From an uncultured Methanobrevibacter sp. (lineage in GTDB: Archaea; Methanobacteriota; Methanobacteria; Methanobacteriales; Methanobacteriaceae), in NCBI GenBank assembly GCA_902789505.1, contig CADAOO010000023.1:1-62959 (forward strand): DNA of 62,959 bases. Reading direction: 5' to 3'. Positions 3,050 through 6,109 of the stretch are shown here, piece after piece. How positions within the stretch are numbered: position 1 is the stretch's first letter; every line of letters starts with the position of its first letter. The position numbers and the translations under genes are program-made. A model generated the notes under the pieces. That model was not told the origin of the DNA and ran no database searches. It saw only the letters and a program-made list of their open reading frames with translations.

Positions 3050-4093
3050 CTAATTTACATCCCTATACATTTTCTCCAAAAAGACTGCAAGTGAAACAAT
3101 ATCCTGCCGGTTATGTTCAATTATAGGCACAATAGGGCCGATATTGTTTTGCGATAAATAAGTATCATAATATCCCGGAATATACTGCCCCGGAACATCG
3201 TCCTGTCTTTCAATACCGAAGAATTCCTTTTCAATCGTTTGAAGTCTGCAGTTTGGCAAGTCATCCTTCCACAGGTTTTTTGCAAAATACATTAAATCCA
3301 AATGAGGCAAGTCCAGGTCTGCACTAATTCTATTATATGTGCATCTATTCTTTATAAAAGGTACATCAAAACTTTTTCCGTTGAATGTCACATGAACCGA
3401 ATCCTCATCCAAATGAGACAGATATGCATCCAGTATCGCCCCTTCTTCAGTATAATCTCTTAAAAAGTATTGTGAGGTTATTATTTCATCACCTTTTATC
3501 TCAGCAACACCAATCAATATTATCGGAACATTTGAAAGGCCTTTAGTTTCGATATCCATAAACTTAAAATTTTCACGGTCCGTAAGGCTGATGCACTTTA
3601 ACAGATTGTCCCTGCATTTTTTTGAGTATCTGTTCCGGTCAAGCAGATCCATCATTTCACCAAACGACAAATCATCAAGCCCATCCAAGAATTTTGATGC
3701 CACATCCCCATATCTATCATGATTTTTAAGAGATTCAATTGTTAAATAACCATTGTTTTTAAGGCTTTCTTCCTTTTTAATGCCTATCTTTGGAAGTAAC
3801 TTCAAATTGTGATTAATCTGGTCTTTAAAATTATTGTCCTCAATTTTAAAATTAATCTTTTCTTTGTTGGTAATCTTTAATGTTTCGCCTAACTCTGTTG
3901 AAATCACCCTTGAGTTTTCAATGCCACTTAAGTCTTTTCCTTCAAAATCCATCAGCAACCTTCTTTTCAAATCATCAAAATATAATGGGGATTTCTCTCT
4001 AGCCCTCTGTTTTGCTTCCTTTGAAGGATTTATAGAAGAAATTGAATTGGCTAACATTTTTTGATAATAATTTTCTTGTTTTTCATTATACAT
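3050..4093 (-). CDS. RNase H-like (YprB-type) exonuclease-domain protein
   Basis: This 347-residue protein has a C-terminal DEDD-type ribonuclease H fold. Visible acidic residues are D180 and E182 (MDIETKG), D243 (NGKSFDVPF) and H327/D331 (EHNRQDIVSL), matching the exonuclease I, II and III motifs of the YprB/RNase_H_2 family. Residues 95-140 (LPKIGIKKEESLKNNGYLTI) look like a helix-hairpin-helix segment. The N-terminal 90 residues are not recognised. The substrate, DNA or RNA, cannot be told from sequence. It is the first gene of a pair with the HEAT-repeat gene. Confidence 0.75.
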   Translation of the reverse strand: MYNEKQENYYQKMLANSISSINPSKEAKQRAREKSPLYFDDLKRRLLMDFEGKDLSGIENSRVISTELGETLKITNKEKINFKIEDNNFKDQINHNLKLLPKIGIKKEESLKNNGYLTIESLKNHDRYGDVASKFLDGLDDLSFGEMMDLLDRNRYSKKCRDNLLKCISLTDRENFKFMDIETKGLSNVPIILIGVAEIKGDEIITSQYFLRDYTEEGAILDAYLSHLDEDSVHVTFNGKSFDVPFIKNRCTYNRISADLDLPHLDLMYFAKNLWKDDLPNCRLQTIEKEFFGIERQDDVPGQYIPGYYDTYLSQNNIGPIVPIIEHNRQDIVSLAVFLEKMYRDVN

Positions 4094-4175: not shown

Positions 4176-4183
4176 TTTATATA
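4176..4183 (+). promoter_or_regulatory. TATA box of the candidate RNA gene
   Basis: TTTATATA lies 25-30 bases upstream of the first base-paired segment of the candidate RNA (4206-4338). That is the expected archaeal TATA-to-start distance. Confidence 0.5.
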
Positions 4184-4205
4184 CTTAAAAATATATAATA
4201 AATAA

Positions 4206-4338
4206 TTGGCTACAATGTAGCCTGAGAGATAGATTAAACAGCCAAATTTTAAAATTCATTTCTCTAAAAGCTTGTAAAAACAAGTTGTTAGGTAAGTAAT
4301 TATTACAATTATTTACCTAACCATCCCAAAACTTTTTT
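4206..4338 (+). ncRNA. candidate structured small RNA
   Basis: The 340-base spacer between the divergent genes at 4093 and 4434 holds a compact, much less AT-rich block that folds into several hairpins. GGCTAC/GTAGCC pairs at 4208-4213 with 4217-4222. CTTGT/ACAAG pairs at 4271-4275 with 4280-4284 around an AAAA loop. GTTAGGTAA/TTACCTAAC is a 9-bp stem at 4287-4295 with 4313-4321. TTGGCT (4206-4211) could instead pair with AGCCAA (4240-4245), giving a possible switch. A T7 tract at 4331-4337 resembles an archaeal terminator. I do not recognise a known family. It could be an independent RNA or the leader of the membrane protein gene at 4434. Confidence 0.5.
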
Positions 4339-4433
4339 TAAAAACGAAAAATTACAAGTCTTTAATAATTTAGAAAAGTATTTAATATTTTTTAATCAAA
4401 ATAATATTGATAGTTATTTAAAGGTTTAAAAAT

Positions 4434-4817
4434 ATGAAAATTAAATTAGCCGTCATATTTGGAATACTCGTATGGTTTTTAACATATTTCTTCTCAGAAA
4501 TTCTTAATCCAATATTCATCAAATATATCCCATACAATCAGATAGCCATACCTTTAGTTATAATTATTGTTACCGGATTTTTTGGAATACTGTACATTAG
4601 AAATATTGACACAAATGAAGTAGTCGAAGGAATACTCCTCGGAATGATATTTATTATAATAGACATCATATTGGATTACCTATTTTTTATTATTCTAGGT
4701 TTCCCGAGCGTGATTTTTGAAAATTACCTGTATCACCTCATTTCAATGATTACTTTAACTTTATTAATAACAACATTTTTGGGATACCTTGCCCAAATGA
4801 AAATTGATTTAAAATAA
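4434..4817 (+). CDS. small integral membrane protein, function unknown
   Basis: The 127-residue protein has four hydrophobic segments (about residues 4-24, 38-55, 67-88 and 100-118) and a short basic C-terminal tail. No family is recognised. The ATG at 4434 is the first methionine after AT-rich leader sequence. Its stop lies 12 bases before phosphopantothenate synthetase, with an AAGGAGA site between, so it may be the first gene of that operon. Nothing in it suggests a role in CoA synthesis. Confidence 0.6.
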   Translation: MKIKLAVIFGILVWFLTYFFSEILNPIFIKYIPYNQIAIPLVIIIVTGFFGILYIRNIDTNEVVEGILLGMIFIIIDIILDYLFFIILGFPSVIFENYLYHLISMITLTLLITTFLGYLAQMKIDLK

Positions 4818-4829
4818 GGAGACATTAAA

Positions 4830-5567
4830 ATGATACCTAAATCACATCCACGTTATGAATCATTGCTTTTAAGAGATAAAATCGTTAAGGCTGCCGAAAA
4901 AGGTTATTTGGCAGATTCCGGAATGATAGCTCATGGCAGGGGTGAAGCATTCGATTATTTAATTGGAGAAAAAACCACATACCCCGCCAAAAGAGCAATG
5001 TACGTTGCTGTTGCAGCATTACTTTTATCCAATAATCCTGTTATTTCAGTCAATGGAAATGCTACTGCACTTGCAATCGATGAAATAATAGACCTTGCAA
5101 AAACCATAAATGCAAAAATAGAAATTAATCTGTTTTATAGAACTGATGAAAGAGTGAGACTAATAACAAAATTATTCAAAGATCATGGCTATAATGACAT
5201 ACTCGGTTCTTTGGATGATGATATTGAATACTTAAATGAAATTAAAAACAATAGATCTTCAGCAAGTAAAACCGGAATTTACACTGCTGACACCATCCTA
5301 ATTCCACTTGAAGATGGTGACAGAGCGGAAATCCTAAAAAAATCAGGCAAAAACATAATTACAATTGACTTAAATCCTCTTTCCAGAACCTCAAAAATGT
5401 CCGACGTATCAATCATGGACAATATTGTAAGAGCCATACCATTTATGACCAAAATTGCCGAAGATTTAAAAGCACAGGATAAAAAATTCCTAATGGATAT
5501 CGTCAATGAGTTTGACAATGAAGAAAATTTAAAAGAATCATTACAACAAATCAAATTAGAAGAGTGA
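4830..5567 (+). CDS. 4-phosphopantoate--beta-alanine ligase (phosphopantothenate synthetase)
   Basis: This 245-residue archaeal enzyme joins 4-phosphopantoate and beta-alanine using ATP, a step of the archaeal CoA pathway that replaces bacterial pantothenate synthetase and kinase. Family hallmarks are the start IPKSHPRYESLLLRDKIV, the segment GMIAHGRGEAFDYLIGE, VNGNATALA and the C-terminal IDLNPLSRTSKMSDVSIMDN. Length is normal. It overlaps or abuts the P-loop kinase gene downstream. GTP-dependent dephospho-CoA kinase, a later step of the same pathway, is at 56.4 kb. Confidence 0.93.
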   Translation: MIPKSHPRYESLLLRDKIVKAAEKGYLADSGMIAHGRGEAFDYLIGEKTTYPAKRAMYVAVAALLLSNNPVISVNGNATALAIDEIIDLAKTINAKIEINLFYRTDERVRLITKLFKDHGYNDILGSLDDDIEYLNEIKNNRSSASKTGIYTADTILIPLEDGDRAEILKKSGKNIITIDLNPLSRTSKMSDVSIMDNIVRAIPFMTKIAEDLKAQDKKFLMDIVNEFDNEENLKESLQQIKLEE

Positions 5568-5572
5568 ACATA

Positions 5573-6109
5573 ATGAGAGTAATTGGAGTTTCAGGAATGC
5601 CAGGATCTGGAAAAAGTATAATTTCAGACAAATGTGTTGAAAAAGGAGCTATCATCGTAAGTATGGGAGATATTATACGGGAAGAAGCTAAAAAAAGAGG
5701 AGAGACAACCGGTGAAACAGCAGTGAATTTAAGAAAAGAACATGGAGAATACATCGTTTCCGAATTGACCATCCAAAAAATTAAAAAACTCTTGAATGAA
5801 GGCAATGAAAAAATTGTTGTTGAAGGAATAAGAAGCCATCATGAAGTTGAACTGTTTAAGGAAAACTTCGAAAGCTTTATGATAGTTTCAGTATTCGCAA
5901 GTCCCATTACCCGTTTTGAAAGGCTGAAAATAAGGATGAGGGAAGATGATTCCCAGGACTATGACGGATTTCTTGAAAGGGACTACAGGGAATTGGGCTT
6001 TGGTCTCGGCAACGTAATATCCCTTTCGGATAAAATGATTATTAATGAAAGTGATTTGGAAAGCTATAGCAAAAAAATAGAAGAATTACTGAATGAAATT
6101 GATTTCTGA
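5573..6109 (+). CDS. UPF0200-family P-loop kinase-like protein
   Basis: The protein has a Walker A loop GMPGSGKS at residues 8-15, GEYIVSEL, and VVEGIRSHHEVELF, as in the archaeal UPF0200/MJ1399 family related to dephospho-CoA and nucleotide kinases. The ATG at 5573 is preferred over the in-frame GTG at 5564, which overlaps the upstream stop, because homologs begin MxVIGVxGMPGSGK. It is probably co-transcribed with phosphopantothenate synthetase. The substrate is not established; since a GTP-dependent dephospho-CoA kinase is present elsewhere in the window, that role is doubtful. Confidence 0.82.
   Translation: MRVIGVSGMPGSGKSIISDKCVEKGAIIVSMGDIIREEAKKRGETTGETAVNLRKEHGEYIVSELTIQKIKKLLNEGNEKIVVEGIRSHHEVELFKENFESFMIVSVFASPITRFERLKIRMREDDSQDYDGFLERDYRELGFGLGNVISLSDKMIINESDLESYSKKIEELLNEIDF

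Follow-up and report, generated by a model that had tools for sequence, protein, structure and literature searches.

For methanogens there are documented cases of intergenic small RNAs acting on mRNAs in trans, as exemplified by sRNA162 of Methanosarcina mazei (PMC3600222). Like the RNA described here, sRNA162 and sRNA154 of M. mazei derive from intergenic small RNA genes of a methanogenic archaeon; M. mazei belongs to a different archaeal order, and the likeness concerns a hypothesised mode of action and implies no kinship. Archaeal C/D and H/ACA guide RNAs are similar to the present RNA in their size range and in combining stems with a conserved unpaired segment, but their defining boxes and pocket were not found here on inspection by eye. 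Terminating riboswitches and attenuators are likewise structured, lie upstream of a metabolic operon and end with a 3' hairpin followed by a T-run; unlike them, this RNA has its own promoter, the operon has a separate promoter downstream, and the two are separable in evolution. The families of Rfam release 15 also comprise small structured RNAs, and the present RNA fits none of them. Methanobrevibacter ranks among the major producers of methane in the human gut and the rumen, and the literature searched on its small RNAs is very sparse; within that literature, which largely excluded subscription papers, we found no description of this RNA. The RNA has a fold that is backed by evolution and an invariant core that is well delimited; its point of origin is clear, one lineage has lost it naturally, and the alignment of its homologues yields a covariance model usable for annotation.

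The window, i.e. the whole stretch of 62,959 nucleotides that was analyzed, contains at 4204–4341 on the plus strand what is almost certainly a real non-coding RNA gene, encoding a structured RNA of about 138 nt. Folding z scores, covariance model matches and covariation identify the gene, and computation further reveals its strand, fold, conservation, promoter spacing and independence from its neighbours. The original prediction of a structured RNA with its own promoter and terminator is thereby supported by conservation, by covariation in helices P1 and P4, by the promoter spacing and by the T-tract. The gene resides in a 340-nt spacer, with the minus-strand gene of a 347-aa RNase_H_2 family protein (3050–4093; Pfam PF13482, E 2.6e-39), a divergent neighbour that is syntenic at homologous loci, on one side and a rightward gene set on the other. 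The latter is a likely operon headed by the gene for a 127-aa predicted membrane protein (4434–4817, plus strand), which has a hydrophobic sequence, is syntenic and matched no Pfam family, followed on the same strand by a member of the phosphopantothenate/pantothenate synthetase family of the coenzyme A pathway (4830–5567; Pfam PF02006, E 7.9e-70) and, as the third gene, by a nucleotide-kinase-like gene (5573–6109). The membrane-protein gene adjoins that of the synthetase across the genus and in one sister genus. The less AT-rich island that had been noticed in this divergent spacer coincides with the RNA: the 138-nt block has 27% G+C, compared with 8% in the spacer upstream and 13% downstream.

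The RNA gene is preceded by a TATA box, TTTATATA (4176–4183, plus strand), which is conserved in the upstream alignment and ends 24 nt before the first stem, P1, in the window. A TATATA motif is found 25–29 nt upstream of P1, counted from its centre to the first G of P1, in 55 of 55 distinct homologues, and given the position of the TATA box in the window, we infer a start of the transcript at 4204–4208. On the 3' side, helix P4 is followed by AUCCCAAAAC and then by the T7 tract (4333–4339, plus strand), a probable terminator, with five or more consecutive T after P4 in 52 of 55 homologues. Both of the signals that had been read from the letters, the TATA box and the T7 tract, are present, and both the distance from promoter to stem and the tract are conserved. 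Further downstream, a purine-rich element and a TATA-like box (4373–4387, plus strand), within a TTAGAAAAgTAttTAAT block that is conserved in the alignment, constitute the putative separate promoter of the downstream gene.

The plus-strand sequence at 4204–4341 folds at −35.7 kcal/mol, compared with −17.1 ± 3.1 kcal/mol for 200 dinucleotide shuffles (z = −5.9), none of which folds as well. Seven more homologues, including that of genome G033 (C1:134520–134682), a bearer which we take to be the human-gut species M. smithii, gave z scores from −4.3 to −7.6, again with 0 of 200 shuffles reaching the native value in each case. Stable hairpins had been predicted and are indeed present, although there are four of them (P1–P4) and not three. 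P1 (GGCTAC-AAT-GTAGCC, 4208–4222) is paired in 98.9% of the cells of the homologue alignment; an extra C-G to U-A exchange is seen in locus L133, and both arms are longer in M. smithii. P2 (4224–4264) is a long imperfect stem closing a large, almost invariant loop, paired in 91% of cells; most homologues are predicted to form it, and it is absent from the minimum-energy fold of M. smithii. No compensatory change was found in P2 in the 56-sequence alignment, because its 3' strand, AATTCrTTTCTC, hardly varies. P3 (GCTTGT/ACAAGT, 4270–4285) has an outer pair that exchanges between A-U, G-U and G-C and is absent or disrupted in a few homologues (L020, L022, L097 and L098). P4 (4287–4321), the long 3' hairpin, is paired in 92.8% of cells, and one of its pairs appears as UA, AU, CG, GC and GU among the homologues. 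All four helices lie on the plus strand.

We evaluated the structure on 56 distinct sequences, aligned by MAFFT without any fitting to the structure. The named structure is paired in 93.9% of cells, and when the partners are slid by 1–3 columns this share falls to 54% at most. Changes on both sides occur at 13 pairs, compared with 6.0 ± 1.5 in shuffles, and in 78 cells, compared with 20.6 ± 3.6, values reached by 0 of 500 shuffles in either case; since the shuffle control ignores relatedness, these counts represent strong support and do not translate into a formal probability. Covariation, one of the checks proposed with the original prediction, is found in P1 (compensatory change at two pairs) and in P4 (two-sided change at 11 of 11 counted pairs). 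It does not extend to the proposed alternative pairing of TTGGCT with AGCCAA, which is complementary in the window but shows no covariation among the 56 homologues, with counts identical to those of the shuffles, and whose individual pairs are broken by mismatches in as many as 7 of the 56. The alternative shares the 5' strand of P1, and it is P1 that covaries; where it does so, the alternative is lost, as in TTGACTAC/GTAGTC, in which the loop stays AGCC.

The pairing statistics indicate which strand is transcribed. G-U pairs outnumber A-C mismatches by 167 to 14 across homologues, implying that the transcribed RNA corresponds to the plus strand. The loop spacer varies in length between 7 and 15 nt, and 18 of 55 homologues are out of register by three, such that frame-breaking indels rule out a peptide. 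A minus-strand peptide starting at AGAGAAATG was considered and is excluded by these indels together with the G-U asymmetry.

Relatives of the RNA were found by blastn in most genomes of the genus, and 29 of these were used to build a covariance model, R1. This model detected the RNA, as a single full copy per genome, in 56 of the 67 Methanobrevibacter genomes, and it found none in the 84 genomes from 18 other genera of the order. Conservation in relatives, also suggested as a check, is thus evident, and the neighbouring genes and their order are identical around the RNA at all loci with enough flank. A second model with laxer filters, R2, produced only chance-level matches outside the genus, and among the best of them that were inspected almost all overlap open reading frames; a 19-base blastn match in genome G040 was discarded, as the remainder of the element is absent there. 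In an independent named collection, the archaeal records bearing the RNA all belong to Methanobrevibacter, e.g. M. thaueri and M. millerae. A collection-wide pattern scan returned Methanobrevibacter loci and bacterial matches, of which the latter were rejected: all 14 inspected lie within open-frame stretches, and nine belong to a single gene that looks mobile and is nearly the same in every carrier. This near-identical coding stretch (KAAYFGLLKHLFAVLDHEVANSRQFGEFVSLD) is found in unrelated Proteobacteria (L061, L062, L067, L069, L072, L083, L108, L113 and L117); it presumably belongs to a mobile element and has no relation to the RNA. Viral contigs contained no match to the RNA. The family had not been recognised from the letters, in agreement with the Rfam search, where none of the 4227 models of release 15 matched the window or five diverse homologous loci at the gathering score; the sole match under permissive settings, at 7.8 bits, is at chance level.

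Sequence constraint is distributed unevenly along the RNA. In the loop segment AAACAGCCAA (4236–4245, plus strand) every column is identical in the 56 distinct sequences, and in the P2 3' strand AATTCrTTTCTC (4253–4264, plus strand) only the single A/G position varies. The two segments together form the sequence-constrained heart of the RNA, with P1 and P4 free to vary around an almost invariant central element. A frozen core, drifting caps that retain their structure, and a promoter and terminator of its own suit either a small RNA acting in trans or one that binds a protein. We favour, at a little under even confidence, the first of these, a trans-acting regulatory small RNA that most likely pairs with one or more mRNAs through its invariant central surface. 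RNA polymerase would start at 4204–4208 from the RNA's own TATA box and terminate near 4339, where the T-tract lies. P1 and P4 would serve as structural caps in which the shape matters and the sequence does not, P4 additionally shielding the 3' end, and P2 would display the AAACAGCCAA loop and the AATTCrTTTCTC strand. The displayed surface would then make contact with a partner at another site in the cell, most likely one or more mRNAs, an action in trans that we infer.

Searches for the partner bear on this reading and on its closest competitor alike. Pattern searches for exact or one-mismatch complements yielded no orthologous mRNA target of the two invariant segments: in the eight genomes covered, 11-mers exactly complementary to the loop sit in unrelated genes, and the recurring near-complements of AATTCrTTTCTC lie deep within conserved coding sequence. 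A close rival, and a serious though lesser possibility, is that the RNA mainly binds a protein or scaffolds a ribonucleoprotein, with the loop and an A-C mismatch in P2 as the putative site, and sequesters or guides that protein. The stretch of about 22 nearly invariant bases is longer than the usual small-RNA seed and leans towards protein or ligand binding, as do the near-invariance of the centre next to the drift of P1 and P4 and the lack of a conserved antisense target among exact and one-mismatch complements; on the other hand, the alignment showed no known protein-binding motif (kink-turn, C/D box or H/ACA box). In a broader formulation, to which we would give somewhat less than even credence, the RNA may be a lineage-specific regulator born in Methanobrevibacter, the invariant central hairpin of which is a new RNA motif that gut and rumen methanogens use to recognise either a protein or metabolite or an unchanging set of mRNAs.

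Considerably less probable is a cis-acting role, in which the RNA would be a leader, riboswitch or attenuator controlling the membrane-protein/coenzyme A operon through termination at the T-tract. The terminator-like 3' end and a neighbourhood that is constant in every bearer with enough sequence are what such a role would predict, but the conserved promoter of the downstream gene lies after the T-tract, and the RNA does not occupy the 5' UTR of the gene to be controlled, where a cis-riboswitch is located. The two units also come apart in evolution. With regard to INDEPENDENCE and origin, in genome G008 the spacer is intact and the operon remains but the RNA is gone, and the downstream gene retains a TATA-like promoter. 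In G013, the RNA and the operon lie about 1.6 kb apart, with another gene in the intervening DNA. The deepest clade of the genus has the operon but not the RNA. These arrangements show that the RNA is a unit independent of the downstream operon. The insertion in G013 (L147, 3400–4733) comprises ORFs of 280 and 73 aa that are alike at the C-terminus and look like scattered nuclease/transposase-type genes.

In a tree of the synthetase, all bearers fall into one supported clade of the genus, in which 54 of 58 rows have the RNA. Of the four rows without it, three (G031, G035 and G110) represent cut or ambiguous contigs, and the fourth, G008, has genuinely lost it. Neither the deepest clade of the genus nor the sister genera carry the RNA, and the simplest history is a single gain within Methanobrevibacter. 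The tree program gave five label changes, because uninformative contigs were treated as absences.

Very improbable is a C/D or H/ACA guide RNA directing the modification of rRNA or tRNA. The RNA is small, conserved, structured and archaeal, with a conserved unpaired stretch as in such guides, but the C (RUGAUGA) and D (CUGA) boxes are not conserved columns in the 56-sequence alignment as judged by eye, and neither an H/ACA hairpin pocket with an ANA box nor a kink-turn is seen on inspection of the consensus. Rfam returned no guide family, and the exact loop complements, sought in eight genomes outside the rRNA loci, share no common place. The notion of a DNA-level element or of chance hairpins in an AT-rich spacer is scarcely credible: palindromes are able to act as DNA sites, but the excess of G-U pairs over A-C mismatches (167 to 14) is expected only for a plus-strand RNA, the promoter spacing and the T-run are conserved, and 0 of 200 shuffles match the fold.

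Two loci depart from the common architecture. In genome G123 (L142, 3001–3215), part of the RNA's 3' half occurs twice in tandem (AAAATTCGTTTCTCT, with P3-like and P4-like hairpins). The duplication contains a second copy of AATTCrTTTCTC and matches the model with an E value of 0.002; the T-run of the first copy is replaced, which predicts a longer, two-module RNA of about 215 nt. In genome G110 (L182), two tandem hairpin units with similar flanks occupy the place expected of the RNA, within the 243 nt that precede the membrane-protein gene. The units carry TTCATCC followed by CATTC or TATTC within closing stems TGCAA/TTGCA and TGTGAAA/TTTCACA, and the contig ends just upstream of them.
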